A DNA stretch of 64,000 nt. It comes from Halosolutus gelatinilyticus. Its GTDB lineage: Archaea; Halobacteriota; Halobacteria; Halobacteriales; Natrialbaceae. The notes beneath the pieces are model-generated. The model saw only the letters and a list, made by a program, of their open reading frames with translations, was not told the origin of the DNA and searched no databases. How positions within the stretch are numbered: the stretch's first letter is position 1; each line of letters opens with the position of its first letter. The stretch spans positions 124,001-188,000 of the forward strand of contig NZ_CP095491.1 in NCBI RefSeq assembly GCF_023028105.1, written 5' to 3'. Positions 5,451 to 36,397 of the stretch are shown here, one piece after another. The position numbers and the translations under genes are program-made.

Positions 5451-5459
5451 CAGTTTCGA

Positions 5460-6715: not shown

Positions 6716-6739
6716 AACGGTTTCGCGGGAATTACGGGA

Positions 6740-9430: not shown

Positions 9431-9505
9431 AAGAACATACGGGGTACTGATAGTGATCAGATACCATGCCTAACAATAAGACCGTCGCTCGTCACGGGAG
9501 GGATG

Positions 9506-10765: not shown

Positions 10766-10810
10766 ACGCGTCCGATCACCCTGTACTGCCCACGAGCGGG
10801 TCCAACGCCG

Positions 10811-14804: not shown

Positions 14805-15028
14805 TATTCATTTAGCGTCAGTTCTGGTGTCGGCGCGCGGTATAAAGTCGCCAGATGATCTTCGATTTAATCGTATGTTCAGGGGGATAAAAAATCGATT
14901 ACTGAATTTCGTTATCGCGCTGGGTACAGGCGGTCTACCTGGCCGAGTACCGCCAGGTCGTGTACGAGACCTTTTTCCGTCGTCGGTGCGGTCACAGCTC
15001 ATCAACGGCTTTGCAGTGTCGCGCGATC

Positions 15029-15300
15029 GTCTCGACGCGCGTGCGATACTGACGAGACGAACGGGAACTGGCGGTTATCGATCCCGTCGAGTACCTCGAC
15101 TTCATCACGCTCCAAGAGAACGCAGCGATCGTCGCACCAATCGGGCAGCGTGCGGAAGGAGTCGTTTTTTCCGAACGTACTGTGTCTCCCGCTCCGAGAA
15201 GAAATGGAGCGGCCCGAAACCGTCGAAGTGGGCAGGAACGTTCTCGTTGGTTCCCGGACGGGATTTGAGGCGCCCGTGAGGGTCCTTCAACGGCATCTGT
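15029..15300 (+). pseudogene. remnant of a UDP-N-acetylglucosamine 2-epimerase (WecB/WbpI-like)
   Basis: Two plus-strand frames join into the C-terminal end of the epimerase family. From 15065 one frame reads ELAVIDPVEYLDFITLQENA (compare family text VIDPVGYLDFL..E.NA); at about 15137 a frameshift moves to the frame reading SGSVRKESFFPNVLCLPLRE then ERPETVEVGRNVLVG, the conserved ERPE(T)VE.G.N.LVG end that follows SGGVQEE. Stops and the loss of all upstream domains show it is dead. It lies next to the Wbp-type operon, whose fifth enzyme would be this epimerase. Confidence 0.82.
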
Positions 15301-15366
15301 CACTGCTAAACCATACGGGGTGGAACTGCTCAGTAACAATCGGTCAGTTCCCTCCACCCTTCCCGC

Positions 15367-16473: not shown

Positions 16474-16608
16474 TGTTGTACTACACAGAGTAGCTCGTGG
16501 CCCTCTTGTTTATCGTCGGGGTGTGCTAGTACTCAGTTCTGCGTCTAGTTGTCACTTGCTGAAAAGGTACCCTGTAGCTATCTTGGTCTGGGGCGTGAGT
16601 AACGGACT

Positions 16609-17994
16609 ATGCCCGACCAGCCCAACGTATTCGTTTTATCTATCGATTCGCTCCCGTATTCGCGCTTCGAGCAGAGTAGCCGTCAGCTCGCAAACCGTCT
16701 CGACGGCGTGAACTTCACCGATGCGATCGCACCGGCATCCTTTACGAGTTCGTCGATGCCCGCGCTGGTTACCGGATCTCACACGGATGAAATTTCAGCG
16801 TGGGGGCTCCCGAAGTCCGGTGGGCCAACGCCCGTCGCAGAGGAATTCACGAAAGCGGGATACGACTGCGCGTTGTGGACGGACAACTACCTCTTCGGCA
16901 CGGAATATAATTACGACCGCGGATTCAACGCCGGGAATCTCGGACGGCCGAGCCGAAAAAAACGCGTCGCGAACCGAGTCAAAGACGGTCCGCTTGAGCC
17001 CGCGTTCGGTTTCTTCGAAACGGTTTACTTCAACGTTGTACAGCCGATGCAGAACGTCGCAGGTATGAGTGATTCTTTCTACAGAACGGCGAACGAGCTG
17101 AACGAACGGGTGCTCACGTGGCTCGAAGAACGCCGATCGAACTCTCCGCTATTCTGTTGGATTCACTACATGGATACGCACCATCCGTATCAACCCCCGA
17201 GCGAGTATCTGGATCGCCGCCGATTCAACGACCGTCGTTCCCGAAGCGAGTTGGGAGAATTCACCCGGAACGCGATCAAGTCCAACGGCGACGACCTAAC
17301 TGAGTCGGAACTCGAGGACGTACAAACGGCGTACGCAGCGTGTTGCGAGTACATTCACGACGAGTTGACTGCCTTGATATCGACGCTTGAAAACCGGGGC
17401 CACTACGATCCGACTTCGGACGTACTCGTCGTTACGGCCGACCACGGGGAAATTCTAAATCGCGACGAACGAGACATGCTCGGTCACGTCCCGCCGGCGT
17501 TCTGGGAGGATATCGTTCACGTCCCGCTGATCATCGGACACCCGCGCTGGTCCGCAGCAAACTACGACGAGCAGGTAAGTCTGCTCGATCTCAAACGCTT
17601 TCTCTTAGAGGCTGCGGAGGTGTCCCGAACGACGAGTATAGATCCCGCTGATCTGCGCCGTGAGCGGGCGATGATGGTCTCCGAGTGGGAGGAACACGAC
17701 GACGGTTCGATCACAACCTTCCGCGGAATTCGATCGGCCGCCGGTCAGAAGTACTTCGGCGCGAGACGGAAGTCAACAGATCAAGTACTTTGCACAACCG
17801 TCGGCGATCGGTCGGAGGACGTTATCCACGCTACGAGCGCTACGTCCTCGCCGATCGATGTTCCTGTAGAATACGAATCGTTACACGAAGAACTGGTCAA
17901 CCGAGGCGGTGCCGTCGACGAACGAGCCGTGGCCGCAACACGTGAACGCGGCGCTGCCGAGGCTCATCTCCGCGACCTCGGATACCTCGACTGA
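16609..17994 (+). CDS. alkaline-phosphatase superfamily (sulfatase-like) protein with Thr nucleophile
   Basis: 461 residues. Metal ligands are visible in VFVLSIDSLPYSRF (Asp13), HYMDTHHPYQPP and VVTADHGE. At the place of the sulfatase Cys/Ser (C.PSR..L.TG) the sequence reads FTSSSMPALVTG, so the nucleophile position is Thr46 and no formylglycine motif is present. That favours a phospho-transfer enzyme (phosphoglycerol or phosphoethanolamine transferase-like) or a Thr-type hydrolase over a true sulfatase. No signal peptide is seen. It sits between GT genes; its stop is eight bases from the end of the convergent GT. Confidence 0.8.
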   Translation: MPDQPNVFVLSIDSLPYSRFEQSSRQLANRLDGVNFTDAIAPASFTSSSMPALVTGSHTDEISAWGLPKSGGPTPVAEEFTKAGYDCALWTDNYLFGTEYNYDRGFNAGNLGRPSRKKRVANRVKDGPLEPAFGFFETVYFNVVQPMQNVAGMSDSFYRTANELNERVLTWLEERRSNSPLFCWIHYMDTHHPYQPPSEYLDRRRFNDRRSRSELGEFTRNAIKSNGDDLTESELEDVQTAYAACCEYIHDELTALISTLENRGHYDPTSDVLVVTADHGEILNRDERDMLGHVPPAFWEDIVHVPLIIGHPRWSAANYDEQVSLLDLKRFLLEAAEVSRTTSIDPADLRRERAMMVSEWEEHDDGSITTFRGIRSAAGQKYFGARRKSTDQVLCTTVGDRSEDVIHATSATSSPIDVPVEYESLHEELVNRGGAVDERAVAATRERGAAEAHLRDLGYLD

Positions 17995-18001
17995 CCGGGC
18001 G

Positions 18002-19171
18002 CTATTCTCCGCGCTCGATCACCTCGCGAAAAATCCGCTCTATCGATATCGCGTTTCGCTTCCAACTGAACGCATTGAACGCGGTTCGTCGCGCACGATC
18101 TCCGACTCGCCGTCTCAGCTCCGTATCGCGTCGAAGGTTTCGGAGGACGTCCGATAGCGCATCCTGGTCGCGCGGCGGTACCAGGAATCCGGTCCGGCGG
18201 TCCGTGATGTAATCCGATGGCCCTTCACCTTCACAGCCGATGACTGGAAGCCCGCAGGCCATCGCCTCGAGATAGGCGACCCCGAACGCTTCTTCGTAAC
18301 TCGGAAGGACGAACACATCTGCGGACTTGAGGTACCCGAATACGTCCTCGTTGGGAACCGACCCCGTGAACGTAACGGCGTCGCGGACGCCGAGTTCGAT
18401 CGCATGCGCTTCGAGTTCTTCTCTAAGCGGTCCATCTCCGACGATCAGATAGTCGACGTCGACGTCGAGCGTCGAGATAGCGTCGAGAACGTAACGGTGC
18501 CCTTTCGTTTCGATCAAATTTCCCACGCTTATTATCCTGAAAGGCGTTTCCGACGATTCGTACGGTTCCGCGTCCGAGATCCGTTTGATAGGTATGCCGT
18601 TGTGGACGACTTCGATATCGTTCGTCGCGTCGAACTCCTGTACGAAGATGCGACGTAGCTTGTAACTATTTAAGATCGTCTTTTCGGACGCATCTATCAC
18701 GGTTTTGACCTGCGGTGCGACCAACGGTCGGTGAATTGATCGCTGCAGATCGGCACCGTGAATCGTCGTCACTAGCGGAATCTCGAGATTTCGGGCAAGC
18801 GGGGCGGCGGCGAAGCCATCAGGAACGGCAACGTGAGCGTTGATGAGGTCGGCGGACGTGAATAACTCACGTCGCTTCCGTAGCGCCCGCCGAACGGAGT
18901 AGGCGACTATCGGCATCGTTTCGGGCCGCGGGAGCGAGAGGTACCGTGGATAGATAACCGAAACGTCCCCGTAACGATCGGTCCGGGGGATAGACCGTGA
19001 CGACGAACGGTTTAGCACTCGCGACACCGCATCGGGGACGTAGGGGACGGGAGAGATTACGCGGACGGTGTGTCCTCGCGCCGAGAGCGCGGTCGCCTGT
19101 CGCTCGACGAAGATTCCGTTCGTCGGATCCGCGGGCGTCGGGAAGAGATGCGAAACGAAGAGGATATCCAT
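18002..19171 (-). CDS. glycosyltransferase family 4
   Basis: 389 residues. N-terminus MDILFVSHLFPTPADPTNGIFVERQA, ARGHTVRVISPVPYVP, INAHVAVPDGFAAAPLAR and VTTIHGADLQR; the donor domain has RIISVGNLIETKGHRYVLDAI, YLIVGDGPLREELE and SYEEAFGVAYLEAMACGLPV, the classical GT4 E..FG...EAMA.G.PV loop. Typical of capsule/EPS mannosyl- or glucosyl-type transferases. It stands alone on its strand, convergent with the enzyme at 16609 and divergent from the polymerase-like gene at 19307. Confidence 0.9.
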   Translation of the reverse strand: MDILFVSHLFPTPADPTNGIFVERQATALSARGHTVRVISPVPYVPDAVSRVLNRSSSRSIPRTDRYGDVSVIYPRYLSLPRPETMPIVAYSVRRALRKRRELFTSADLINAHVAVPDGFAAAPLARNLEIPLVTTIHGADLQRSIHRPLVAPQVKTVIDASEKTILNSYKLRRIFVQEFDATNDIEVVHNGIPIKRISDAEPYESSETPFRIISVGNLIETKGHRYVLDAISTLDVDVDYLIVGDGPLREELEAHAIELGVRDAVTFTGSVPNEDVFGYLKSADVFVLPSYEEAFGVAYLEAMACGLPVIGCEGEGPSDYITDRRTGFLVPPRDQDALSDVLRNLRRDTELRRRVGDRARRTAFNAFSWKRNAISIERIFREVIERGE

Positions 19172-19306
19172 GTACGAAGAGGGATCGATCGCGCAGTAAA
19201 AGTAGGCGCTGTATGATGCGATGAATGACTCCTAAAACGATAAAAAAGTAATTATAGCGGCGCGTTTCACGAGGTGATACCCTGCCCTCCGCTGAGTGAC
19301 AAACTG

Positions 19307-20560
19307 ATGATATATATGAATTCGCACCGAACCGTCGAACCGACGTCTCGTTCGCTCCCTACATGGGTACGATCTGCGACGATCCTTTTACTGGTTCTCG
19401 CCGTTCTCGGCCCCATTTTGCCCGGAATATCGGTGATGAACGTAAATCTCTTCCCCTTCCGCCTACTTCTCCCCTTTTACGCCGGGTCGGTATCGCTACT
19501 GTTCATATATAGAGGATACGACATTTTCCTCCCACACAGTGTCCTCTATCTATTGGGTTTTGCCATAGTCGGTGTATTGACATCTATCTCCGTGTTCCCG
19601 GCGGGATACGTCCTCCGTGGAGCGGTAATATTCAGTGCGTGCTTCACCGTATTTTTCGGCATCATCCTTACACTCACGACTCGGAAATGGGTATATTACG
19701 GCTGGATGACGGTATGCTCATTAGGGCTCGTTTCGTTTGTGGTCGCTGCATTCGAATATACGACCGGCTGGCATGCGAGTCTGAGTCAAGTCCACCAGTT
19801 ACCGAATCGGCCACCCTACGATAGTTACGTTACCGCTTGGTTCACAAATGTGAATGACATGTCGTTCTTCTTAGTTCTTTCGCTGATCCCCGCGTTGGTC
19901 CTCGGTTTTACGGCCAGAAAGACAACTACGCGTCTATTTTGGTTGGCGATGTGGATAACCGGATTTTCGCTCACGATTCATCTCGGGGCTCGAGCGTCGA
20001 TACTCGGGTTCGCGGTTGCGGGGTTCGTCGTCGTCGGTTTCGTCTATTCGGATCGTCTTCGGTACGTTGCAGGTCGATTCCCGACCCGTTTTGGCCAGGC
20101 CGCAGCGCCGCTTATAGGGATCTTCGCCGTGCTGATTTTCGCTCTCGTACCGAACCCCGCTTCGACGGCGAGTTCGTCCCTTTGGATCCGTTGGCAGTTG
20201 CAGAAGGCGGCCGCGTATAGCGGTGGGCTGACTGGGAACGGTCTTGGTTCGAGCTACACCGTTATCGGACGATCGCCCATCAGGACAAACGGCGTCGGCT
20301 CTCCGCACAGTTGGTACGGCGCCCTACTAACCGATACCGGTATCATAGGCCTCACGATATTTCTCGCCTTTTACGGGGGTCTAGTCAGTAGACTGTGCCG
20401 ATCGGCAGCACTGCGACAGCCGGTCCATTTGATGGGCGCCACTGCTGTCATTACGTTACCGATCGCAGGGTTGGGTCCGAGCAACGCGTTTCTCATGCCG
20501 CTATTTTGGATCGTCCTTGGTCTTGCGGTTTCGGCGCTCCAGATACAGGCGGAGCACTAG
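19307..20560 (+). CDS. O-antigen ligase/polymerase-like membrane protein
   Basis: A highly hydrophobic protein of about 417 residues with ten or more predicted helices (for instance SATILLLVLAVLGPILPGI, SLLFIYRG, RGAVIFSACFTVFFGIILTL) and one large outside loop near residues 290-350 (SSSLWIRWQLQKAAAYSGG, GVGSPHSWYGALLTDTG). The loop with a conserved His before W/Y and the 'LTDTGIIGL' helix start are features of the Wzy/WaaL family, which polymerises or ligates lipid-linked glycan on the outer face. GTG 19274 and ATG 19316 are alternative starts. Its presence suggests repeat-unit polymerisation in this locus. Confidence 0.8.
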   Translation: MIYMNSHRTVEPTSRSLPTWVRSATILLLVLAVLGPILPGISVMNVNLFPFRLLLPFYAGSVSLLFIYRGYDIFLPHSVLYLLGFAIVGVLTSISVFPAGYVLRGAVIFSACFTVFFGIILTLTTRKWVYYGWMTVCSLGLVSFVVAAFEYTTGWHASLSQVHQLPNRPPYDSYVTAWFTNVNDMSFFLVLSLIPALVLGFTARKTTTRLFWLAMWITGFSLTIHLGARASILGFAVAGFVVVGFVYSDRLRYVAGRFPTRFGQAAAPLIGIFAVLIFALVPNPASTASSSLWIRWQLQKAAAYSGGLTGNGLGSSYTVIGRSPIRTNGVGSPHSWYGALLTDTGIIGLTIFLAFYGGLVSRLCRSAALRQPVHLMGATAVITLPIAGLGPSNAFLMPLFWIVLGLAVSALQIQAEH

Positions 20561-20617
20561 GGGGTATCCGTACGGAGCGAGACGATTGCACCCGGCCGAC
20601 TCTACCCCCTCGCCAAC

Positions 20618-21769
20618 TTACACCGCCTCGAGTACGATTTCCGCGAGCTTTTCTCCGGCTTGTTCTCTCGTGTATTCGGCGTACGGCCCCTCTCCAAGCG
20701 ACCGTGGATCCGTGGCGACAATATCCGACAACGCTGCCTCGATGGCCGGGAATTCGTTCTCGGTGACGTAGCCGTGGTCGAACTGTGAGACGACTTCCGC
20801 CATCGCCCCGGCCGATGGCCCGCACGCAAGGATCGGCGTTTCGCACGCGATGTAATCGAAAATTTTGGTCGTCATCTCTTGGGGGGAGCCGCCCGAGACC
20901 GCCAGTCCGAGGTCGGCCCTGTGGATGTGTCGAGCGACGGCGGATCGATCGACGAACCCGGTACACGTAAACTGATCGGCGAGTCCGAACTCCGCGACGG
21001 TCGAGACGACGTCCTGCTCGGGTTCCCCGACGTGAACGAACTGAACTCCGGTTTCAGTTTTAATGTCGGCGAGCGCGCGGAGGAACGGAGCTACGTCCCT
21101 GTAGTGGCCGAACTTACCGACGTAGACGATCGTAAATCGGTTCGGTTGTTCGACGTCGACGTCCGGGAAATCGTCCGGATCGTATCCGTTCTCCACCGTC
21201 TTGAACTTCGAAGATAACTCCGGATACCGATTTTGATACGCTCGCGTAATGCCGCTCGTTGCGGTCGTCACAGCAGTTGCCCGTCGAAGAATTCTCGGTT
21301 CGGCGCTCGTCGAAACGACATCGTGCATCTGTCCGAAGACTGTTCGTTTCGGCCTGTACGGCTGGAGCGTCCACGCGTCTCGGAAATCGACGAGATAGGG
21401 GACCTCTACGGAGGACGTTATAACCACTGTCGATAGAAGCGGGAGAAACGGTCCTGCCGTGTGCCAAATGGCATCGAAGCTGTATCTCTCGTGGAGTTGC
21501 CTTATCTTCCAACACAGAGGCGGAACCCATCGTATCTTATTGAATTCTTTCGGCGAGTTCGGCAGAAATTCCGACACCTCGTGGACCGTTACGTTTCCGC
21601 CGTCGTCGATCGATATGTCGGTGTTTGGTCCGATATTATCGGCCGCAGTAAGAACGTGTATATTCCATTGATCCGGGAGATACTTCGCGAATTTGGACGC
21701 GCGTATCGAACCGACCCCGCCGCCGGGCGGATAGTTGTAGGTGATAAGAAGGATTCGAATCTGATTCAC
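20618..21769 (-). CDS. glycosyltransferase family 4
   Basis: About 383 residues. I start at GTG 21769 (NQIRILLITYNYPPGGGVGS), the usual beginning for this subgroup; the frame extends to GTG 21793. Visible motifs: IWHTAGPFLPLLS, VPYLVDFRDAW, FTIVYVGKFGHYRDVAPFL and a C-terminal TTKIFDYIACETPILACGPS with the binding Glu replaced by an Asp-Tyr pair (KIFDYIA), as in some GT4 relatives. A retaining transferase acting on the lipid-linked glycan; sugar unknown. Convergent with the polymerase-like gene. Confidence 0.85.
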   Translation of the reverse strand: MNQIRILLITYNYPPGGGVGSIRASKFAKYLPDQWNIHVLTAADNIGPNTDISIDDGGNVTVHEVSEFLPNSPKEFNKIRWVPPLCWKIRQLHERYSFDAIWHTAGPFLPLLSTVVITSSVEVPYLVDFRDAWTLQPYRPKRTVFGQMHDVVSTSAEPRILRRATAVTTATSGITRAYQNRYPELSSKFKTVENGYDPDDFPDVDVEQPNRFTIVYVGKFGHYRDVAPFLRALADIKTETGVQFVHVGEPEQDVVSTVAEFGLADQFTCTGFVDRSAVARHIHRADLGLAVSGGSPQEMTTKIFDYIACETPILACGPSAGAMAEVVSQFDHGYVTENEFPAIEAALSDIVATDPRSLGEGPYAEYTREQAGEKLAEIVLEAV

Positions 21770-21964
21770 ATCAGTAGTTAGGAACGATACCACAAAGTTA
21801 GTACCCCGGTTTCGGTAAGCAACCCACTCTGCATGATGGGTTACATTGGTGAATACTTCTCGTAGAATGCGCTTTAGAACACGTAGAGCAACTCAAGTAC
21901 ACACGCGTATTCAGAAGATCGATGTGACACACTCGATCGTCCTTATACATGTGACTCTCTGGCA

Positions 21965-23173
21965 TTATTGTTCGGAGTCACTGTTCTCCACGATAGTAAG
22001 AACGGTTTCCAACTCGGCCCGTATATTGAATCGCTTTTCGACGGCTTGACGGCCGTTTTCTCCCATTTCGGACAGTATCTTCGGTTGCGTCACCAGTCTT
22101 TTGAGTTCGGTAGCGATCGCACCGGGGGTTTCCGCGGTCGTCGTGCCGGCGCCGGTCTCGGCGAGAATTCTACGCATAGTTGGCAGATCGGTCGCAAGGA
22201 TCGGCGTTTGAAACGCCATCGCCTGAAACAATTTATTCGGGAGAGCGTATTGCGAGGCTTTTCGCCGGTGATACGGGATCACAGTGACCGTGGATGCCTC
22301 GTAGTAGGCGGGCACCTTCTCAAAATCGACCCAGCCCGTAAATTCGACCGCGTCGCTAACCTCCCGTCTCCGGACAAGACGTCGAAGTGATTCGACGTAT
22401 TCATCGTTTCCATCGCCAACGAGGAGGAGTTTCGTGTCGGGGATCTCCTCGAGTATCGAGGGCAGCGCTTGGATCAACGTTTCGATCCCTCGCTGGGGCG
22501 TGAAACCGCCGATGTACGAAATGACATAGTCAGCGTCGTAGTCGAGGGGAGTTACATCCATACTATCCAAGCGCTCTAGATCGGGGACGTTTCGGACTAC
22601 TCCGGAAGTGAGATTACGACGGTTGTATCTAGCAGCGAAATAATTTAGGAGTTCTTCACTAATGGTGATGAGTGCGTCTGTCCGTTTAACGGCGTATCGT
22701 TCGAGACGCTGGTATCGCCACGGTGGAGTCAAGAGGATTTTCGAGTTCAGCCGATCTCGAAACGAGAGCCCTTCTCTCCATAGCTTGACCGCTTCCGGAT
22801 ACATTTCGTGTAGATCTGCAACGATAGAAAGATCGTATTGGTTCGCGAACATCGTCGCAAGTTTCGCATGTTCTATATCGTGATAATAGATCGTATCGAA
22901 ATGTTTGTTGCTGAGTATCCGCTCCAGTTCTCGCAACCAAATAGGGTGATACCAGGTTGCCGCGTACACTCGCTCTGCAGCGTGGTGGACGACTTTCGAA
23001 TTTGCACAAACTCTAGTGACAGCGACGTCATTTAACGAGTAGCAGCATTTCTCGTCGTACTGTCCTCGACAAACAACGTGTACGTCGTGACCTGCCGTTA
23101 CGAGCCCTTCAGCTTCTCGTCTGACTCGAATATCGGGTTCGTACTTACCATTTGTCACCATCAAGACGTTCAT
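21965..23173 (-). CDS. glycosyltransferase family 4
   Basis: 402 residues. N-terminus MNVLMVTNGKYEPDIRVRRE, IYYHDIEHAKLAT, IVADLHEMYPEA (the D.HE.YP signature), then the donor half with VISYIGGFTPQRGIETLI, KLLLVGDGNDEYVESL and NKLFQAMAFQTPILATD. The gene follows the ABC exporter on the same strand with a gap of about 45 bases, so both are probably one unit (25028-21965). It is distinctly AT-richer than neighbours outside the locus, consistent with horizontal exchange of glycan genes. Confidence 0.88.
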   Translation of the reverse strand: MNVLMVTNGKYEPDIRVRREAEGLVTAGHDVHVVCRGQYDEKCCYSLNDVAVTRVCANSKVVHHAAERVYAATWYHPIWLRELERILSNKHFDTIYYHDIEHAKLATMFANQYDLSIVADLHEMYPEAVKLWREGLSFRDRLNSKILLTPPWRYQRLERYAVKRTDALITISEELLNYFAARYNRRNLTSGVVRNVPDLERLDSMDVTPLDYDADYVISYIGGFTPQRGIETLIQALPSILEEIPDTKLLLVGDGNDEYVESLRRLVRRREVSDAVEFTGWVDFEKVPAYYEASTVTVIPYHRRKASQYALPNKLFQAMAFQTPILATDLPTMRRILAETGAGTTTAETPGAIATELKRLVTQPKILSEMGENGRQAVEKRFNIRAELETVLTIVENSDSEQ

Positions 23174-23219
23174 AGTATGATCGATCTATCCCGTGATTTT
23201 ACCGTTAATCTCGAACGCA

Positions 23220-25028
23220 TTACGATTGTAACGAGTACAGATTGGAGTACTTCCCGTCTCGCGTCACGAGTTCCTCGTGATTACCGGCTTCGACGATTTC
23301 GCCGCTCTCCATCGTATAGATCCGATCGGCATTCGTAACGGTCGAGAGGCGGTGAGCGATTACGAGCATAGCGTACTCCCGTTCCATCGACTCGATTCCG
23401 TCGTGTACTTGCTTCTCGAGTGAGGTATCCAGATCGCTCGTTGCCTCGTCGAGGATCAGAAGATCGGACTCCTTCAGGAGAGCGCGGGCAATCGCGACTC
23501 GCTGTCGTTGCCCGCCGGACAGTTTCACGCCCTGATCGCCGAGGACCGTCTCGTATCCGTTCGGCAACTCGTCGAAGAATTCAGTCACCCGCGCGACCTC
23601 GCACACGCGATCGATCTCCGCCCGCGTTGCGTCCCGGTTACCGATCGTCAAGTTCCGTCGGAGCGTATCGTTGAAGATGTGAGGGTCCTGCCGAACGATC
23701 GACACCCTCGAACGCCACTCGTCGACGCTGAATTCGGTTATCGGAACGTCGTGCACTCGAATCCCGCCCCGGTCCGGTTCGTACATCCGCGCGAGCAGCG
23801 ACGCGATCGTTGATTTCCCCGCGCCGGACGGACCAACGAACGCGACGAACTCGCCACGATCGAGGCTGAATGAAACGCCGCGAAGCACCGGTTCATCGTT
23901 CGAATTGTAGCTGAAATGGACGTCACGAAACTCCGTCCGTTCGATCGGCGTCGGGACCGGTTTCGAACCGGCGTTCGACTCGCTGTTGCGCTGGAGCTCG
24001 TCGATGAACTCCTGGGTACGGACGAGGTGAGGGAGTTCGCCCTCAACCTGGTAGACTGCCGTGTTGAGGGTACTCACCTTGGGCCCGAGTTTGAACATCG
24101 CGAATAGAAACACGCCCAGTTCAGCTAGAGTCATCGAGGAAAACGTCAGCCCGAAATAGATGAGTACGAACACCGTGATCGCCGTGGTCAGCTGGTAAAA
24201 GTTCGTGATCGCTTCGCTGTTTCGTAACAGTTTGATCCGGTACTGCTCGAACCGCGTTACCGACTCGCTGAATCCTGAGCGCAGTTCGTCGGACATCCCG
24301 AACAATTTCACCTCTCGGACGCCCTGTGTACCGGCCTGTGCGCGCGACTGAATCCCTTCTTTGGCCTCGGCGACTTCGTCGCCGAGTGCGTACCCAGTGT
24401 CGAGGACGTATCGAAACAGGACGGTCGCTCCGCCGAGGAAAATAGCTGTGAAGATCGTAAGCAACGGTGACACGAACAGCGCGAGTGAGACGTACACCAG
24501 CGCGAGCAGCCCTTGTTCAATACAGTTTAACACGTATTTGATCACTCGTCCAGCGTATTCAGCCTGAGTGACGATCGCGTTCATGATGTCGTCGGACCCT
24601 TCCTCGTCGAAATAGGCGATCTCGGCGTCGAGGGCGTTGTCGAACGCGGTCTCCTGCAGGTGCTTGACGTATCTCGTTACGATCGATGCTTTAAACCAGC
24701 CGACAACGAACGATAGTGTGAATCGAACGGCCATCACGGTTGCAACACCGGTCACCAGATACCCGAGTGTGAACGGAACTCCGAGAAATTGGTAGATGCC
24801 CAAAAAGAGCTCAAGCAGCCCGCTGGCGTCTTTTTTCGGTGTATCAGTTTGAGCGATTTCGACGATCGGCATTATGAAACTGAGCCCGAATCCCTCGAGC
24901 AACGCGGCCACGACACTCAGCCCGATAACGAAGATGGCAAATCGAGGTTGGAACTTTGCAACGCGATACAGCGACGCGCCTTTCTCCCGCCAGGTGAGAT
25001 CGACGTCGATATCGTTGGTGTCAGACAT
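23220..25028 (-). CDS. ABC exporter, permease-ATPase fusion (MsbA/PglK-like)
   Basis: A 602-residue half-transporter. Residues 1-330 hold six membrane helices (FAIFVIGLSVVAALLEGFGL, LVYVSLALFVSPLLTIFTA and others); residues 365-600 form the ATPase with Walker A GPSGAGKST near 400, Q-loop VRQDPHIFND, signature LSGGQRQRVAIARALL near 500, Walker B LLILDEATSDLD and the switch His in VIAHRLSTV. In this context, next to glycosyltransferases and with no Wzx-like flippase in the locus, a PglK-type role is likely: flipping lipid-linked oligosaccharide across the membrane for the STT3 enzyme at 27113. That role is inference. Confidence 0.9.
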   Translation of the reverse strand: MSDTNDIDVDLTWREKGASLYRVAKFQPRFAIFVIGLSVVAALLEGFGLSFIMPIVEIAQTDTPKKDASGLLELFLGIYQFLGVPFTLGYLVTGVATVMAVRFTLSFVVGWFKASIVTRYVKHLQETAFDNALDAEIAYFDEEGSDDIMNAIVTQAEYAGRVIKYVLNCIEQGLLALVYVSLALFVSPLLTIFTAIFLGGATVLFRYVLDTGYALGDEVAEAKEGIQSRAQAGTQGVREVKLFGMSDELRSGFSESVTRFEQYRIKLLRNSEAITNFYQLTTAITVFVLIYFGLTFSSMTLAELGVFLFAMFKLGPKVSTLNTAVYQVEGELPHLVRTQEFIDELQRNSESNAGSKPVPTPIERTEFRDVHFSYNSNDEPVLRGVSFSLDRGEFVAFVGPSGAGKSTIASLLARMYEPDRGGIRVHDVPITEFSVDEWRSRVSIVRQDPHIFNDTLRRNLTIGNRDATRAEIDRVCEVARVTEFFDELPNGYETVLGDQGVKLSGGQRQRVAIARALLKESDLLILDEATSDLDTSLEKQVHDGIESMEREYAMLVIAHRLSTVTNADRIYTMESGEIVEAGNHEELVTRDGKYSNLYSLQS

Positions 25029-25503
25029 ACTCTCTAGTCGTTTTTCGGCCTCGACTCCCTGAACTGGGTATTGACCCAGTGCTCCTCCTCGAAGGTGATG
25101 TTTGGGGGATTCACTTAGTAATCGGATCGCTTCACCTTCGTGAAGAACCGTTGCAGCGTGATCACGCCTGATTACTTTGCGCGTACGGAGGCAATAGTCG
25201 GTAGGATGTAGATCATCGCCACGACGTGAGCGACCGTCTAGTGAGCGTCACCGTCGATTTCCACCGTGTAACGGGCTGTTACGCAAATAAGCGTATAAAC
25301 CCCTCTACCCGGTAAGTAATCGTACATTCTCCAGAGGCTTCATCCGCCTCTCCCCGTGATGATCCCGTCGAGTTCTCCCTTGCAGAAAGCATGTTCGATC
25401 TACACGCGGCGTATCACAAATCCTGAATCCCGCATCGCTGTGCGTACAGGTGCGGGGGAGTGGAGGTCCGCGCATCGTACGGTCGCTCTGGCAACTAGCC
25501 GTC
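25029..25503. other. intergenic space upstream of the ABC exporter
   Basis: About 475 bases with no convincing frame; 25400-25732 minus is a shadow of the sugar transferase end. A run with cgtgtaacgggctgttacgc (25264-25283) contains an inverted pair gtaac / gttac. Probably carries the promoter of the exporter-glycosyltransferase unit and the 3' trailer of nothing else, since the next gene ends toward it. Confidence 0.45.
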
Positions 25504-26928
25504 TTATTTTAAAACGGATATGACGATTTTCCAGACCTGGCGGATCACGATCTTCAGATCGAACCAGAACGACTGCTGCCGAATGTACTCGAGATCGTAT
25601 CGTAACTTTTCTTCGGGATCGGTGCTCTTCGCGTCGTTTATCTGTGCGAGCCCGGTTAGGCCGGGCTTCACGAACCAGCGTTTCCGCCACGCCGGTGCAT
25701 CCTCCTCGAGCAACACTTCCTCCTCGGTCCAAGCCGCTCGCGGGCCGACCACGCTCATATTACCGGCCAAAATCGACCACAGCTGCGGCAACTCGTCGAG
25801 GTGAGTCCTCCGTAACGCGCAGCCCACGCGCGTGATCCGATCGTTCTTTTCATCCCCGGTCGGTGTCACCGACTCGCCCTCGGGAACCATCGATCGGAAC
25901 TTGTATACGGGAAAGGTCTCGCCGAAGCCGGTCGTCCGGTCCTGGCTGTACAGCACCGGGCCGTGACTGTCGAGCTTGATCGCGACGGTGATCGCGATCA
26001 TCAGCGGGACGGACGCGACGAGTCCGACGAGCGCAAACGCGAAATCGAACGCCCGTTTGAACAGGTGATCGAGCGGGTCCCACGGTTCGAGATCGACGTC
26101 GACGATTTCGTCCACGTCTCCCTCGGAGACCAGCACGCTGTCGGTGTACTCCCGGTGGACCTTGGCGTCGACTCCGTGTTCGTGGCAGGTGTCGAGCGCG
26201 CCGAAAAATTCCGCTCGATCGGCCTGACGAAACGCTAATACCACCGTGTCGACGTCGTACTCGACGAGCGCGTCCTCGAGTCGTGACAAACCGCCCAAGC
26301 GGGTCAACGCGTCGACTCCGCCCCACGATTTGACGCCGCCATCGTGGGCGATGATGCCGTCGTGTGACGCAGTTTCTGCGAAGGTGGACTCACCGCGAAC
26401 GCTCACCACGGACGGACAGAGATAGCCGAGAACCGGCACCTCGATCGACGGGATGATCTGTTCGATCTGCCCGAGGTCGTCGCCGACGACGAGCGTTCGA
26501 CCGGGATCTTCGACCGGCCGGTGGCGAATCCAGACGAACCAGACGGGAATCGCGATCGACAACACCCCGATCGTCATCGTGAGCGTCGCTCGCGGAAGTC
26601 GATACGACCAGCGAAAATAGCCCAACGTCGCAAGCGCGAACCCACCGACGAGGACGCGCTTTTGCGCCAGAAATACGGTGTCGAGTATCCGCCGCGGTTG
26701 CGGTTTGTACAGCGGGAACAGGACGCCTGCGATCGCGATCGCGCTCAACGTGATCGCCCAGTATAACGATCTCCCGGATAAAACGGTGACGTCGAGACGG
26801 TTGAACAAGGGGACGTACGTCGTGAAAATAGATTGCGAGAACTGGTGATTTACAACGAGCACCGCGCAGATCGTCAGTAGAATCACTCCGAGGGAGCTTA
26901 CTGTGCGATACTGCCATCCGGTTAACAT
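25504..26928 (-). CDS. polyprenyl-phosphate glycosylphosphotransferase (initiating sugar transferase)
   Basis: 474 residues. Four N-terminal helices (VSSLGVILLTICAVLVV etc.), a central Rossmann-like CoA-binding-type region (LVVGDDLGQIEQI, DTVVLAFRQADRAEFFGAL), then the bacterial sugar transferase domain: KRAFDFAFALVGLVASVPLM, PVLYSQDRTTGFGETFPVYK, RRTHLDELPQLWSILAGNMS, VVGPR and KPGLTGLAQI. It moves a sugar phosphate from UDP-sugar to dolichyl/polyprenyl phosphate, the first step of the glycan. I choose ATG 26928 (MLTGWQY), because residues upstream of it in the open frame to 27042 are Cys/Tyr-rich and unlike the family. Confidence 0.92.
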   Translation of the reverse strand: MLTGWQYRTVSSLGVILLTICAVLVVNHQFSQSIFTTYVPLFNRLDVTVLSGRSLYWAITLSAIAIAGVLFPLYKPQPRRILDTVFLAQKRVLVGGFALATLGYFRWSYRLPRATLTMTIGVLSIAIPVWFVWIRHRPVEDPGRTLVVGDDLGQIEQIIPSIEVPVLGYLCPSVVSVRGESTFAETASHDGIIAHDGGVKSWGGVDALTRLGGLSRLEDALVEYDVDTVVLAFRQADRAEFFGALDTCHEHGVDAKVHREYTDSVLVSEGDVDEIVDVDLEPWDPLDHLFKRAFDFAFALVGLVASVPLMIAITVAIKLDSHGPVLYSQDRTTGFGETFPVYKFRSMVPEGESVTPTGDEKNDRITRVGCALRRTHLDELPQLWSILAGNMSVVGPRAAWTEEEVLLEEDAPAWRKRWFVKPGLTGLAQINDAKSTDPEEKLRYDLEYIRQQSFWFDLKIVIRQVWKIVISVLK

Positions 26929-27112
26929 ACATCGTTTGAGGCAACCGCTGATGATATAACATATTTCGTATTCAGTGGTGGAGGTTCGTTTTTGTAAAAT
27001 ATAATGTGATGTAAATGCCACAATCAGACAGAAATCAATCAACTAGAAACGGGAGAGATGCGAGCGGAGCGTCCGCTTCCGATTTTTCGCGGATCCGGCG
27101 CGTGAGAACCGG

Positions 27113-29560
27113 TTAGGAGGATTCGACCCGCGATCCGTTTTCGACCGCCGCCGTCGGAACGTCGATTTCCCGATCGCCAACCGTGTACTTGCCGGGATAC
27201 GGGACCGTCACTTCCAGCGTCCCGTCTTCATCGACGGTGACTTCCCGCTCGTACGTAACCGTCTCCCCCGAAACCGTCGCTTCGGTTTTGACGGTCATCG
27301 TTTCGCCCGGTTCGCCGGTCGTCACGATCGTCGCGCCGGGGACGACGGCGAACGCCGTCGTATCCTCGTCGAGATAGATCGCCTGATAGTGCTTGAGCGG
27401 GTCGGCGTCGTCACCGCCAGCGCCGTAGTCGTCGTGAAGCCGCGCCTGTGCGCTCGGTTCCGAGTACTCGCTGTCCGAATCCGTCATGACGACGTATCCG
27501 ACGCCGTTCCGCTCGAATTCCTCGTACCACTCGTCCGGATCGCCGTCGGCCTGGAATTCGTCGAACTTGTTTATCGCGTACGAATAGGACTTCGATTCTC
27601 CGCTGACGAAGTAGTTGTACATCCGATTATCCCCCCACTTACTCAATACGAAATTCTCCGGGTACTCTCGACCGGTCTCCGTCGCGTGCTCGTCGATGGC
27701 CATCGCGGCTTCGTACTGCGAATCGCTGTAAGCCGTCTGCGCGACTAACGACGGCGTGTAAAACAGGCCGCCGCTACAGACCAACAGCCCGATCCAGACG
27801 ATCGCGACGAGCGTCCAACGGCTTCGCGGCACGATGATACTCCGGGAGTGCGTTCCGCCGTCGGTTACCGTACCTCGACCCGCCCGATCGCTCGTATCCT
27901 CTTCGTCCTCGTCACGCCCCCTCAACGGCGCCGGAATCCGCGCGAGATCAGCCCACGCGAGTATCCAGACGAAGCCCATTCCGCCGAACACGGAAAGCGG
28001 GATCGCCAGTTGAGCTGCGAACCGCCCCTGTAACGTCGCCAGCAGGAGCCAGAAGACGACGTAAACCGAGAGCAACAGCCATCCGGGTTCGTACCGACGA
28101 GACGCGATCCAGCAGGCCCACGCCACGACCAGGATCCCGAGATAGAAGGTCAGACCGAGTTGTGCTAACGGGCCGAAGACGATCGCGTCGTCGAGGGTGA
28201 ACAACGAGGTCGTCTCCGCAATGCCCTCCCGAAAGAACAGGTCGGCGGCCTCCGCTCGCAGCCGGGCCCACTCCTCGGGACGCAGAAACCGAAACGCCGC
28301 GAATCCCCCTCCCACGAGGATACTTTCGAGGATAAGCAATCCGCTAATCGGCCAGCCGAGTCGTCGCCACAATTCTCCAAGACCGATCGTGACGACGGCA
28401 CCGCCCACGACCAGAACGGGCACAATTGCCGTGAACGCCTCGTGCCAACCCCAACTGACGTGCAGAAGCGCGATGAGTACGCTGCTCAGTACCAACCCGA
28501 CGAGAATCGGCGCGTTAGCCAGCGCGGGCCGGAACCCGGAACGGACGTCGATCGCCACTTTCAATCCCGCGTACGCTGCGACGGGCATGAACATCAGGAC
28601 CGATCCGCCCCAGGAAAGCGCCGAGAAGGAGAGGGCGATCCCAAGGACGACGGCAGCGATCCACGTCCACGGATGCCGAAGGTATCCGGCGGTCACCGCT
28701 TCCACCGCCGAATCGCCGTTCCACCGCCGTTCGAGATCGACGGCGAGCCAGGCGAGTGTCAATAGCGTCACGCCGAGCCAGAGGTACTGGTGCAGGCGAT
28801 GTTCGAGGAAGCCAACGCCGGTGTAAGCGGCGTGTGCCGGTGTAAGTGCCAAGAGGAGCAGCGAAGCGATACCGACGCGAACGTCGTCGGTAACGACCAC
28901 GGCGAGCCAGTAGACCACGACGCCGAGAACGACCGTTGCGACGATCGGCAACCAGGCGGCGACCATGTCAGCCGCCCACTGATCGCCGCCGAGTAACTCC
29001 GCGAAAAACCAGTTCGCGGCGTGGGTTACCGGACGCCGTTCGGCCGCCTCCACGGGCATATCCGTGATAACGCTCACGTCCGTGATCCCGCCCGATTCGG
29101 CGAGCATCCTCTCCATCCAGTACCGGTAGTAGTACGGGTCGTTCCCCGGCGAAACGACGGCACCTCCGCGAAAGACCGATCGGTAGTTCAACAGCCGCAT
29201 TCCGACCAGCACCGCGAGGGCGCCCACGAGCGCTGCCGTCGCGCGTGCGTCGAACGCGATCGGGATCGAAAACTCGAATCGATCGGTCGATCGATCCTCC
29301 GGGATCTCTTCGCCGGCGAGCCCCGCTTTCACCCCCTGACGACTGGAAACGCGATACTCGCCGTCGACCTTCGTCACGAGTCCGCGCGAGACGAGCTCGC
29401 CGAACGTCCCCGAATCGAGCGGTACGTCGTCGAAGGTCCAGCTATCGTGTTTGGCGTCGACGTCGAGGACGGTGTCGAGGATCGCATCACCGTCTTCGTA
29501 TTCCTCGCGGAAGGCCGCTGCTGCTTCGGCGACTGCCGCAGGATCCGATGCGTCGGCCAT
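27113..29560 (-). CDS. STT3/AglB-type oligosaccharyltransferase, divergent
   Basis: 815 residues. It would transfer a lipid-linked glycan to Asn of surface proteins. Residues 1-90 are a soluble N-terminal extension (EEYEDGDAILDTVLDVDA, GTFGELVSRGLVTKVDGEYR, winged-helix-like); then about 13 membrane helices; the first outside loop has GNDPYYYRYWMERML with the metal-binding Asp, and ERRPVTHAANWF. At the place of the STT3 signature WWDYG the protein reads SKWGDNRMYNYFV (Trp near 641). The C-terminus is a beta domain (VTVDEDGTLEVTVPYPGKYT). A TATA box at 29584-29592 makes the ATG 29560 start nearly leaderless. Confidence 0.88.
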   Translation of the reverse strand: MADASDPAAVAEAAAAFREEYEDGDAILDTVLDVDAKHDSWTFDDVPLDSGTFGELVSRGLVTKVDGEYRVSSRQGVKAGLAGEEIPEDRSTDRFEFSIPIAFDARATAALVGALAVLVGMRLLNYRSVFRGGAVVSPGNDPYYYRYWMERMLAESGGITDVSVITDMPVEAAERRPVTHAANWFFAELLGGDQWAADMVAAWLPIVATVVLGVVVYWLAVVVTDDVRVGIASLLLLALTPAHAAYTGVGFLEHRLHQYLWLGVTLLTLAWLAVDLERRWNGDSAVEAVTAGYLRHPWTWIAAVVLGIALSFSALSWGGSVLMFMPVAAYAGLKVAIDVRSGFRPALANAPILVGLVLSSVLIALLHVSWGWHEAFTAIVPVLVVGGAVVTIGLGELWRRLGWPISGLLILESILVGGGFAAFRFLRPEEWARLRAEAADLFFREGIAETTSLFTLDDAIVFGPLAQLGLTFYLGILVVAWACWIASRRYEPGWLLLSVYVVFWLLLATLQGRFAAQLAIPLSVFGGMGFVWILAWADLARIPAPLRGRDEDEEDTSDRAGRGTVTDGGTHSRSIIVPRSRWTLVAIVWIGLLVCSGGLFYTPSLVAQTAYSDSQYEAAMAIDEHATETGREYPENFVLSKWGDNRMYNYFVSGESKSYSYAINKFDEFQADGDPDEWYEEFERNGVGYVVMTDSDSEYSEPSAQARLHDDYGAGGDDADPLKHYQAIYLDEDTTAFAVVPGATIVTTGEPGETMTVKTEATVSGETVTYEREVTVDEDGTLEVTVPYPGKYTVGDREIDVPTAAVENGSRVESS

Positions 29561-29583
29561 TGGCACGTTGCTCCATGTACATT

Positions 29584-29592
29584 CTGATAAAG
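29584..29592 (-). promoter_or_regulatory. TATA box of the STT3 gene
   Basis: Minus-strand ctttatcag, centred 28 bases before ATG 29560, the spacing expected for a leaderless haloarchaeal transcript. It also disfavours the GTG at 29566, which would leave too little room. Confidence 0.5.
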
Positions 29593-29739
29593 ACTGGGTC
29601 CGTAACGGCGCATCTATGTCGCGGACGGACCAATAAGCATGGGATACTGTGCGATGAGCTGATACAAGAGGTACGCGCCATCTCGCCCCGACGCCGGTGA
29701 ACTCGAGAGAGTCTCAGAAGACGGTTCTAACTCCGTTCA

Positions 29740-30630
29740 CTAGTCCTTACGCGCCTCAAGAAAAACGACTTTCCCCCTGGAGTCTACTCCGACTGAATGA
29801 GGATCCAGTATTTCACACTCGAAATCGTTCGATTCCAATATACGTTCTACCTCGCCAGGGTCTACACCGTAGTTTTTGTGTATCTCACAGATGACGTATT
29901 TGCAATCCGGATTCGCCAAGGTCTTTGAGAGACCGTTGAGAACCGCTACCTCTACTCCCTCGACATCGATTTTGATCGCGTTTGGCGAGGCGAGGTCCCG
30001 TTCGACGAGGTCGTCACCCCGGACCAGCGAAACGTCTATTTCGTTTCCTGACTCAACGGGTACAGTCTCATCGCTTTGTTCCGGTATTAGCGTATGGCCA
30101 CCGGTTCCAACGTTCTCGCTTTCGAGCGACAGTTCTACACGACCGTTCGAATCAGATAGCGCGACTTTTTTAATGGAGATATTTGAGTAACCGTTAAGTG
30201 CCGCGTTCTTTCTAACTTTTCTCGCATTTTCCGGGTGGGGTTCAAAAGCAATAACAGCACCTCGCGGGACGTTTGAAGCGGCAAAACAACTGTACGTCCC
30301 GATGTTAGCACCGATATCCCATACGATGTCGCTATCGTCTAGCTGCTCTATAAATCGACCGATTAGTTTTTCTTCCCTGACAAAACCGCTGTCCATCCGA
30401 GCGTATTCGACTTCGGTATCGATCATGAACGAGACTTCGGTTCCGTCGATACGTTCGGTGTGCCGAAACGGCAATCGAAGTAAATCGATACGCCGAAAAA
30501 AAGATCGGAGATGACCGTGATAGATGTTTGAGAGACTGCTATGAAGGCCCGTTTGATCCGCTATATTTCTAGCCGATCCAGAATATATCGTTTCAATTAT
30601 TTTTTCGAAGTAGTGTTTGACCAATGCCAT
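29740..30630 (-). CDS. FkbM-family methyltransferase
   Basis: 296 residues. The SAM-binding Rossmann motif IVWDIGANIGTYSCFAA near residue 105 is followed by GAVIAFEPHPENARKVRKNA and the FkbM pair NAIKIDVEGVEVAVLNGL and YVICEIH. FkbM proteins O-methylate sugars or polyketides. Placed between the oligosaccharyltransferase and a secreted protein and markedly AT-rich, it most likely methylates a sugar of the glycan made in this locus (methylated hexuronates are known in haloarchaeal N-glycans). Target not provable from sequence. Confidence 0.92.
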   Translation of the reverse strand: MALVKHYFEKIIETIYSGSARNIADQTGLHSSLSNIYHGHLRSFFRRIDLLRLPFRHTERIDGTEVSFMIDTEVEYARMDSGFVREEKLIGRFIEQLDDSDIVWDIGANIGTYSCFAASNVPRGAVIAFEPHPENARKVRKNAALNGYSNISIKKVALSDSNGRVELSLESENVGTGGHTLIPEQSDETVPVESGNEIDVSLVRGDDLVERDLASPNAIKIDVEGVEVAVLNGLSKTLANPDCKYVICEIHKNYGVDPGEVERILESNDFECEILDPHSVGVDSRGKVVFLEARKD

Positions 30631-33907: not shown

Positions 33908-34516
33908 CGGATGCTCGACGGTGCGAACCGTCGGTGGGGGTAATTCGACCGGGCAAATAAAGCACGTCCCTGACCCGATCGCGCGTCGACCGGGGCGCCT
34001 GGCCGATCGCGTATCGGTCGGCGACCTCGATTCGATCGCGTTTCGGTGGCGATCGGCTCCCGGTCGGCACCGGCGACAGTCGCGGCGAGGTCCGTCGTCC
34101 GAATGGCACCCGAAGGTAATCCTACCGAGGGGGAATCGATCGTCGAGGCGCGTTCCTCGCGATCGTCTCGTCGCGGCGAAACGTAACCGATCGGCCGACT
34201 GGACCACCGCCGAAGTAATCGATGCCAAACCGCTCTCAAGAAGTGATTTGAATCCGTTTTCGGACCGGTTAAAACCGGTTCAGTCGGGCGGTTTTCGACG
34301 GCTCGAGGACGAGTAGCGCATCGAGAACTGTTTGCGATCGATCCGCCGCGATAACGGACCCTTACGGAGAATAAATAGGCCACACGAAATCGATAGGCGA
34401 CTTCTTCTTCGGTGCAACCGACAGATAACAAAGACGTTCTTCCGGGAAGACCGGTCTGCGTCGCAAACATTCAGCAACGAAAGACCCTCACAGGTCATTT
34501 CAAAGACGTTGCGACA
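33908..34516. promoter_or_regulatory. upstream region and leader of the large curlin-like gene
   Basis: 610 bases without a gene. A TATA box aataaatag at 34370-34378 lies about 145 bases before ATG 34517, giving a leader of roughly 115 bases, like the leaders of the two small paralogues. Just before the start an inverted pair gtcgcaa (34461-34467) / ttgcgac (34509-34515) could form a stem, but seven bases may be chance. The element aaagacgtt occurs twice (34428 and 34502 areas). Confidence 0.45.
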
Positions 34517-36397
34517 ATGACCATGACCAGACGATCACAGTTTACGACCGCTCTCGTGGCCGCGATGGTGGCCATCTCGATGCTTGGGATGGCTGTCCCC
34601 GTGGGCGCAAACAGTAGTACCGGTCCGACAAAACAAGTACACACTCTCCAGGACGGGGAGGATCTCTACCTCCTGTTCGGCGTCGAAGGAGACGTCACCC
34701 AAGACGAAATAGAGGGAATGATCGCCGAGGGCGCATCAGCCGATAGCCCGAGCGCGATGGCGACCCAGCAGGACAGCGTCTCGGACGTCATCCAGTACCA
34801 GGACGTCGGCCAGGTGAACCTCGTCGAGCAGGGCGAGGCAGTGTCCGTCGCAATCGGCGGTGGCGAAGCGACCGCCATCCAGGACGTGGACCAGCGGAAC
34901 GCCAACTCCCAGACCGGCGAAGCGAACGCCGAGAACTACAACAGCAACCACGCCCAGACGTCGTTCGAAGACGTCGGCGACGTCTACGTGGTCATGGGCC
35001 AAAGCGATAACCCGCAGTTCAACGGCTGGGGCGTCGCTAATGATGACGGCGAGACGACGGTCGCGCAGACGGCGCAGGCGTCCGTCTCCCAGGCCCAGGC
35101 AGTCCAGCAGGCGAACGTCAAGCAGGGCACCGTCGCCTTCGCGTTCGCGGAGAACGAGAGCTCGGCGACCGCCGTCCAGGTGACCGAGCAGGCCAACCAG
35201 AACCTCCAGGAAGGCTCGTCCGTTGCGACGAACGTCTACGCGGAGGATCTCGACAACGATCCGAACAAGAGCTACCACGAACGACACAAGAAGCACGACG
35301 GCGTGAGCGCTGTCCAGAACGCCAACGCGTCCGTCGAACAGGCCCAGGAAGTCCAGCAGGCGAACGTCTACGAAATGGGCGGCGCCGTCGCGATCGCGGT
35401 CGGCGAGAACGCCACCGCGACGGCCGTTCAGATGACCGAACAATCGAACCTCAACGAACAGATCGGCACCGCCGAGGCCATCAACATCATGCTGGACTCG
35501 CCGGGAATGAACATCGCGACCGCCAGCATGGACGGCGAATCCAGCATCGTCGACCAGGAGGTCAAAGCGCAGGGCGCCGATCAGAAGGACCACGACAAGA
35601 AGAAAGACGACGGCGAGACGGACCTCGAACAGGCCGCCGAAGCCAGCGTCACGCAGTACCAGAGCGTCGAACAGGCGAACGTTCAGCTCAACAGTACGGC
35701 CGCGGCGATCGCCACGAACGGCAGCGAAGCTGAAGCGGTTCAGCTGACCTTCCAGGAGAACATCAACGCGCAGGTCGCCTCGGCGCAGGCCCTGAACGTC
35801 TACCTCGGCGATCTCAGCCCCCACGACAAGTCGCTCGAGGAGAAAGGACTCAAGGAAGGACAGAACCTCAGCGGCGCCGTCATCACCGAAACGACGGGCG
35901 TGACGGTTAACGGCGACGCGATCGAGGGCACCGATACCGTCGCCTTCGACTACGACGGCCAGAACGAACAGCTGAACGACGTCGATCAGTACTCGACGGC
36001 GGAAGTCGCACAGAGCCAGAACATCACGCAGCTGAACCTCGAATCGAACACCGCCCTCGCGGTCGCCGAAGACAACGGCAACGCGTCCGCGCTCCAGCTG
36101 ACGATCCAGGAGAACGAGAACGTCCAGATCACGGAGTCCAACGCGACGACCGTCAACAACGGCACGATCGAGGACGGCACGGACGGCGAGGACGGCACGG
36201 ACGGCGAAGACGGCACGGACGGCGAAGACGGTACTAACAGTAGCGACGGAGCCAACGGAACCGACGGCAACAGCGTCGAAGCGGCCCAGAGCGACGACGA
36301 TGGCGGAAACTCGGGCGACGAATCGATGCCCGGCTTCGGTGCCGGCGTCGCGCTCGTCGCGGTGGTCGCCGCGGCCATGCTCGCACGACGCAGCTAA
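34517..36397 (+). CDS. large curlin-like repeat surface protein with PGF-CTERM anchor
   Basis: 626 residues. Signal peptide (TTALVAAMVAISMLGMAVPVGA), an opening block LQDGEDLYLLFGVEGD, then five copies of a 50-110-residue repeat. Each reads roughly Q.Q.V.QaN - A.A.A - A.AvQ.T.Q.N.N.Q - A.N.Y.D, e.g. QAQAVQQANVKQG..AVQVTEQANQNLQ; QAQEVQQANVYEM..AVQMTEQSNLNEQ; QYQSVEQANVQLN..AVQLTFQENINAQ. The spacing resembles curlin repeats. A GTDGED linker leads to MPGFGAGVALVAVVAAAMLARRS, a textbook PGF-CTERM signal for archaeosortase A. The mature chain is acidic and poor in aromatics. Predicted: lipid-anchored beta-solenoid or amyloid-like surface component. Long leader; ATG 34523 is an alternative start. 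Confidence 0.85.
   Translation: MTMTRRSQFTTALVAAMVAISMLGMAVPVGANSSTGPTKQVHTLQDGEDLYLLFGVEGDVTQDEIEGMIAEGASADSPSAMATQQDSVSDVIQYQDVGQVNLVEQGEAVSVAIGGGEATAIQDVDQRNANSQTGEANAENYNSNHAQTSFEDVGDVYVVMGQSDNPQFNGWGVANDDGETTVAQTAQASVSQAQAVQQANVKQGTVAFAFAENESSATAVQVTEQANQNLQEGSSVATNVYAEDLDNDPNKSYHERHKKHDGVSAVQNANASVEQAQEVQQANVYEMGGAVAIAVGENATATAVQMTEQSNLNEQIGTAEAINIMLDSPGMNIATASMDGESSIVDQEVKAQGADQKDHDKKKDDGETDLEQAAEASVTQYQSVEQANVQLNSTAAAIATNGSEAEAVQLTFQENINAQVASAQALNVYLGDLSPHDKSLEEKGLKEGQNLSGAVITETTGVTVNGDAIEGTDTVAFDYDGQNEQLNDVDQYSTAEVAQSQNITQLNLESNTALAVAEDNGNASALQLTIQENENVQITESNATTVNNGTIEDGTDGEDGTDGEDGTDGEDGTNSSDGANGTDGNSVEAAQSDDDGGNSGDESMPGFGAGVALVAVVAAAMLARRS
36173..36232 (+). repeat. 18-base tandem repeat coding GTDGED
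   Basis: Three full copies and one degenerate copy of gacggcacggacggcgaa (36173, 36191, 36209, 36227) in frame inside the surface protein gene; they code the flexible, Ca-binding-like GTDGED linker before the anchor and could change in number by slippage. Confidence 0.9.

Follow-up and report, generated by a model that had tools for sequence, protein, structure and literature searches.

The closest described counterparts of the locus reported here are functional amyloids. FapC consists of imperfect repeats, one layer each, in which a network of Asn and Gln is conserved and the linkers vary (PMC12392863). In a survey of curli systems from 2012 (PMC3521004), a single archaeal protein, not named there, is mentioned as having repeats like those of curli; it might belong to the family described below. 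For haloarchaea, we found no description of a gene set for an amyloid-type fibre, though the biofilms of one genus stain amyloid-like; that of Haloferax volcanii does so with Congo red and ThT, the gene being unknown (PMC4180959).

The window analysed here, a 64,000-nucleotide stretch of the Halosolutus gelatinilyticus genome, encodes a large surface protein with five Q/N-rich repeats and two small secreted proteins with one such repeat each. On balance, these probably make up a two-component, functional-amyloid-like surface fibre that works like FapC or curli and is homologous to neither. No paper on the large-protein family was found in the literature searched.

The five-repeat surface protein

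The large gene and its leader comprise the following features (window coordinates).

34424..34516, plus strand: conserved non-coding promoter/leader, GATAACAAAG ... GTCTGCGTCG ... CAGCAACGAAAGACCCTCACAGGTC
34517..36397, plus strand: open reading frame of 626 aa for the large five-repeat Q/N-ladder surface protein, PGF-CTERM anchored
34517..34609, plus strand: N-terminal signal sequence MTMTRRSQFTTALVAAMVAISMLGMAVPVGA..., Sec type by inspection
34772..34939, plus strand: repeat 1, approximately residues 86-141 (from motif positions and homologue-model strands)
35063..35236, plus strand: repeat 2, approximately residues 183-240, with a sequon at the inter-strand turn (motif, homologue strands, sequon analysis)
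35312..35488, plus strand: repeat 3, approximately residues 266-324, with a turn sequon (same evidence as repeat 2)
35627..35803, plus strand: repeat 4, approximately residues 371-429, with a turn sequon (same evidence as repeat 2)
35984..36154, plus strand: repeat 5, approximately residues 490-546 (motif, homologue strands)
36170..36270, plus strand: GTDGED acidic linker, collagen-like in composition only and below the Pfam cutoff
36317..36391, plus strand: PGF-CTERM archaeosortase A signal (TIGR04126, E 7.6e-10)

Each repeat, about 60 aa long, carries the pattern QxQxxxQxN followed 28-30 residues on by QxxxQxNxN, and is built of two pseudo-symmetric halves of 27-30 aa. Repeats start at residues 93, 192, 275, 380 and 499, with variable linkers between them. 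The motif is hit 10 times in the protein, whereas 20,000 shuffles that preserved its composition gave 0.13 hits on average and never more than 4. The reading frame and the five repeats of regular Q, N and A spacing given in the initial annotation are confirmed. The chain is acidic (pI 4.05) and poor in aromatics (3.4%), as had also been claimed, and the GTDGED linker is present in the translation; the collagen match on that linker was set aside as composition only. Matches to the PDB sequences of NHP2 and PhoQ were treated as chance. A longer GTG start at 34412 is probably not real, because it would translate the conserved non-coding leader, within which length changes among relatives shift the frame.

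The C-terminus scores 38.2 bits against TIGR04126 (cutoff 24.5) and lies above the cutoff of PF18204 as well; the PGF motif, the transmembrane stretch and the basic tail are all present. Archaeosortase A (ArtA) is encoded elsewhere in the genome (TIGR04125, 332.9 bits, E 2.4e-99). The description as an anchored surface protein is supported.

Relatives of the large protein are found by protein search in 99 of 125 genomes of the same family, most of them co-linear over all five repeats at approximately 43-61% identity. Across the class the protein occurs in 84 of 391 genomes, nearly all of that same family. A scan of named genomes finds it within the Natrialbaceae in Natrinema, Haloterrigena, Natronorubrum, Natrialba, Natronococcus, Halopiger, Halostagnicola, Halovivax and others, and outside that list in Haladaptatus, Halalkalicoccus, Halocatena, Halomicrococcus and Halegenticoccus. 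Three forms can be told apart among the loci examined: Sec-type proteins without an anchor, mostly ending inside the last repeat (42 loci), Sec-type proteins with a PGF-CTERM anchor (14 of the 56 Sec-type loci, the window protein included), and Tat-type proteins (RRGYLKG) without an anchor, mostly with Lys-rich C-terminal tails (11 loci). The Tat-signal paralogues (among them L041, L044, L046, L051 and L106-L110) have few turn sequons.

In an alignment of 66 homologues, Q, N and A at alternate residues are invariant or nearly so, and the conserved face of each repeat's second strand differs from the variable one (permutation p <= 0.0008). N-glycosylation sequons fall at residues 213, 298 and 392 of the window protein, at or beside the inter-strand turns of repeats 2, 3 and 4; such turn sequons occur in 75%, 67% and 85% of the Sec-type homologues, respectively, and are rare in the Tat type. 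Repeats 1 and 5 are without conserved sequons.

AlphaFold2 gives a weak model of the large protein (pLDDT 54.7, pTM 0.45, much of it <50), in which every repeat has beta strands and none contains a helix. A homologue at 53% identity, modelled with 66 sequences, reaches pLDDT 65.9, and its model shows ten strands arranged as five pairs, each strand 26-33 residues long (~28) and mostly at pLDDT ~80-96, with disordered linkers (pLDDT <50). The structure prediction that the initial annotation had proposed as a check gives beta strands in every repeat rather than a helical or disordered fold, and the repeat periodicity is present. Models and alignment together yield repeats that are predicted to be all-beta and have a conserved Q/N face, as looked for in a functional amyloid.

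A Foldseek search of both models against 350,542 PDB chains places FapC in the top two positions for the large protein, and FapC, CsgA and FapC in the top three for the homologue; neither the E values of 0.41-2.6 (probability 0.01) nor the TM-scores reach significance, and chains rich in Q/N may be favoured by the amino-acid term. VIA-align against CsgA reaches a Z of only 3.2 (2.5 A over 97 residues). A second-look fold alignment of the large-protein model returned nothing with Z >= 2, and a viral fold library held no convincing match for the modelled protein. These few neighbours offer no more than a hint towards a functional-amyloid-like fold, for FapC a Greek-key cross-beta layer per repeat.

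One-repeat partners and the layout of the locus

The small genes and the cluster that separates them from the large gene are placed as follows.

4917..5291, minus strand: small secreted partner A of 124 aa, with a single repeat whose halves are permuted (B then A); A2 profile, E 4.6e-16
5435..5457, minus strand: promoter-like element of partner A, GAAACTGTTTGCCGGGTATAAGT
6192..6599, minus strand: small secreted partner B with a single permuted repeat, 135 aa when counted from the ATG at 6599, its likely start; A2 profile, E 4.7e-14
6702..6724, minus strand: promoter-like element of partner B, GAAACCGTTTGGCGGGTATAAGT
9503..30630 (wider bounds 7970-34400), no strand assigned: N-glycosylation/surface-glycan cluster with AglB at 27113-29566; context, not a proven part of the system

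In relatives, the small proteins encoded beside the large gene are ~100-250 aa long and Sec-secreted, with a signal of the type MKRALTLALTVALIGSLMFMGFAGTAAA and one repeat. Their profile aligns with the repeat of the large protein over all 60 residues (hhalign, 98% probability, E 1.3e-13), and the repeats of the two proteins are homologous. Their matches to Pfam and NCBIfam models were all under cutoffs, from low complexity. Both half-repeat orders, A-B and B-A, are seen among the small partners (the window pair, whose permuted order was read by inspection, and loci L007, L015, L030 and L031). Near one large gene (locus L049, 5760-6143, plus strand, in genome G056) there is a small Q/N-containing protein with a PGF-CTERM-like tail of its own.

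A small gene lies upstream of the large gene in 42 of 55 distinct Sec-type loci, divergently oriented in all 42 and within ~1.1 kb in 41 of them; the window is the exception, at 27.8 kb. For most of the 13 Sec-type loci in which no small gene was found, the flanking sequence at hand was just 1.5 kb. By the same count, no small gene was found at the 11 Tat-type loci. Among the 125 genomes, 99 have both proteins, 25 have neither and a single one (G015) has only a weak small-type match; the class-wide counts in 391 genomes are 84 (large) and 83 (small). Where the large gene is present these counts are partly circular, since the small profile also matches the repeats of the large protein, and only the shared absence is therefore independent evidence. 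Genomes lacking both are spread over several genera, a pattern suggestive of repeated joint loss.

Each gene type has a characteristic upstream element. The block GATAACAAAG, with 0-1 mismatch, precedes the large gene in 47 of the 56 Sec-type homologues and has a single match in the genome; it opens a conserved non-coding stretch, either a promoter or an RNA element, that extends in the direction of the start codon. The promoter-like sequence GAAACnGTTTnnCGGGTATAAGT has exactly two genome matches, one ahead of each small gene. The leaders of both small genes share a GACTGGGCAACGCG-like sequence with relatives, and a hairpin in the leader of the large gene, GACCCTCACGGGTC, is present in some relatives only.

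The usual gene order in relatives (names assigned by reading the sequences) is Cdc48, a LarC-like gene, the small gene or genes, the large gene, a RuvC-like gene and RadB. In the window, Cdc48 (889-3117) and the LarC-like gene (3295-4683) both lie on the small-gene side of the split. The ~28 kb between the small and large genes encode a DUF4330 protein, glycosyltransferases, a UDP-sugar dehydrogenase, a DegT aminotransferase, a sulfatase-family protein, an ABC transporter, AglB and an FkbM methyltransferase. One other genome (G016) has a like cluster with AglB in the same place, and in four more (G109, G084, G119 and G093), judged by coordinates, some 26-34 kb come between the two genes, which keep their divergent orientation. 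Splits of this kind occur in several other genera.

A probable fibre, and the less likely stalk or glycan scaffold

As a fibre, the system would work as follows. The large protein would be exported by Sec, and each ~60-residue repeat would form one beta layer of two ~28-residue strands, with Gln, Asn and Ala side chains that point inward and ladder onto the next layer, and with the variable, acidic, disordered linkers looping out. Since the protein of this genome ends in a PGF-CTERM, archaeosortase A should cleave it and fix it to the surface, which would display an anchored five-layer stub on the cell. The small, freely secreted one-repeat proteins could then polymerise on the stub by the same ladder pairing, a nucleator with diffusible subunits as in CsgB/CsgA or FapB/FapC. 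The two half-repeat orders could imply layers shared between adjacent subunits. The inter-strand turns with sequons would probably face outward and bear sugars, and an archaeon would need no outer-membrane exporter. A role in adhesion or biofilm may be supposed. Most homologues have no PGF anchor, so the system does not depend on being anchored. Of the beta-solenoid or amyloid-like fibre component suggested earlier, the all-beta repeats hold as a prediction and the fold neighbours, though not significant, are amyloids; that the large and small proteins form a fibre is still something we infer, with better support than before because one-repeat proteins are divergently encoded and co-occur with the large one.

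Against the fibre, a single chain with five homologous repeats could instead make a solenoid complete in itself. The large protein would then be a monomeric anchored stalk or adhesin, a rigid rod with stacking inside the chain only, and the small proteins its caps or ligands. Five repeats per chain suffice for a closed stack, the PGF-CTERM would anchor it, and the confident strands lie inside repeats, with none indicated between molecules. We nevertheless hold such a stalk to be unlikely: the small proteins have exactly one copy of the same repeat and are co-encoded and co-lost with the large one, which polymerisation fits better, and most homologues are unanchored. It is improbable, too, that the protein is a wall or matrix glycoprotein that mainly carries N-glycans, its repeats a scaffold for sugars tied to the neighbouring AglB cluster. 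The frequent turn sequons of repeats 2, 3 and 4 and the glycan cluster lying between the genes, in the window and in G016, are what such a protein would have; but most genomes have no intervening glycan cluster, repeats 1 and 5 have no conserved sequons, and the alternate conserved Q/N face is left unexplained. As a secondary feature, glycan carriage is compatible with the fibre.

Very little speaks for a low-complexity, intrinsically disordered acidic surface protein with no defined fold. The composition is rich in Q, N, A, D and E and much of the large-protein model lies at pLDDT <50, but the alternate-residue pattern is invariant over tens of genera and the strands of the homologue are confident. 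Least credible of all is a true homologue of curli in the CsgA/B family. Q/N repeats, divergent genes and CsgA as a weak fold neighbour recall curli, and the protein had been called curlin-like; as a statement of homology the name fails at the sequence level. The curlin repeat model PF07012, which had been put forward as the check, matches neither the large protein (at E 10) nor anything in the genome, with an E. coli control positive. Compared with E. coli CsgA by hhalign, the protein reaches a probability of 0.1%. K-12 CsgA has the minimal curli motif QxGxxN five times in 152 aa and the large protein has it once, and CsgG (PF03783) is absent from the genome, with controls positive.

A matching repeat pattern in Thermincola and comparison with known systems

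A metagenome-assembled genome of Thermincola ferriacetica contains three tandem genes with two repeats of the same pattern each (L183, 2986-5298; G415:C60). They score E 7e-36 to 8e-26 against the family profile (nine-sequence set), show no signal peptide by inspection, and are flanked by a YheC/D ATP-grasp gene and a PGA_cap gene on a contig that is AT-rich and bacterial; they are the sole copies found in that genome. No bacterial version of the repeat was found in the phages, plasmids or viral contigs searched. With the trio, possibly spore-coat proteins, the repeat would seem to reach beyond archaea, either by common descent with the haloarchaeal repeats or by convergence on one ladder pattern. 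We would propose, tentatively and with rather less assurance than the fibre itself, that the repeat may mark an independently evolved lineage of prokaryotic functional amyloids, with an often-anchored multi-repeat protein and diffusible one-repeat subunits in glycan-decorated haloarchaeal fibres, crossing domains to a form in Thermincola that is possibly spore-coat-related.

The locus offers a small system open to testing: a five-repeat protein, either anchored or secreted, with its one-repeat partners and dedicated promoters, naturally present in some close relatives and absent from others. Since it needs no outer-membrane exporter and is built for molar salt, one would learn from it how Q/N-ladder fibres are salt-proofed, and such a fibre could serve as a protein material.

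Among known systems, curli (CsgA/CsgB; PDB 8c50; E. coli K-12 csgBA) resemble this one in their Q/N-rich repeat, divergent locus and weak fold neighbourhood, and in a nucleator with a soluble subunit, which is presumed only for the haloarchaeal proteins. They differ in that the latter lack the curlin motif and CsgG, and have a ~60-aa repeat with two ~28-residue strands per layer in place of the short strand-turn-strand unit of curli. With haloarchaeal PGF-CTERM proteins (TIGR04126) the window protein shares the C-terminal processing signal and an ArtA in the genome; only a minority of its family, the 14 Sec-type loci counted above, has the anchor. The Methanospirillum sheath protein SH (PMC10593813) is likewise part of an archaeal extracellular amyloid-like assembly; it belongs to another lineage and is described as forming a tubular sheath. 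The Haloferax volcanii matrix (PMC4180959) is haloarchaeal too, and its material stains amyloid-like; the present family does not explain that staining, because it is mostly from Natrialbaceae and there is no Haloferax among the named matches.

FapC and FapB of Pseudomonas (PDB 9nqd, 9u4u; PMC12392863) come nearest. A search of all PDB chain sequences with profile A1 (E 10) does not return FapC. Both systems have large imperfect repeats with one predicted beta layer each, a conserved Gln/Asn array, long variable disordered linkers and secretion, and FapC is the top, non-significant neighbour of both models. The large protein differs from FapC in its five ~60-aa repeats of another motif and its halophilic acidic surface, and the haloarchaeal system differs from Fap in working without an outer membrane, with a PGF-CTERM anchor and with one-repeat partners.
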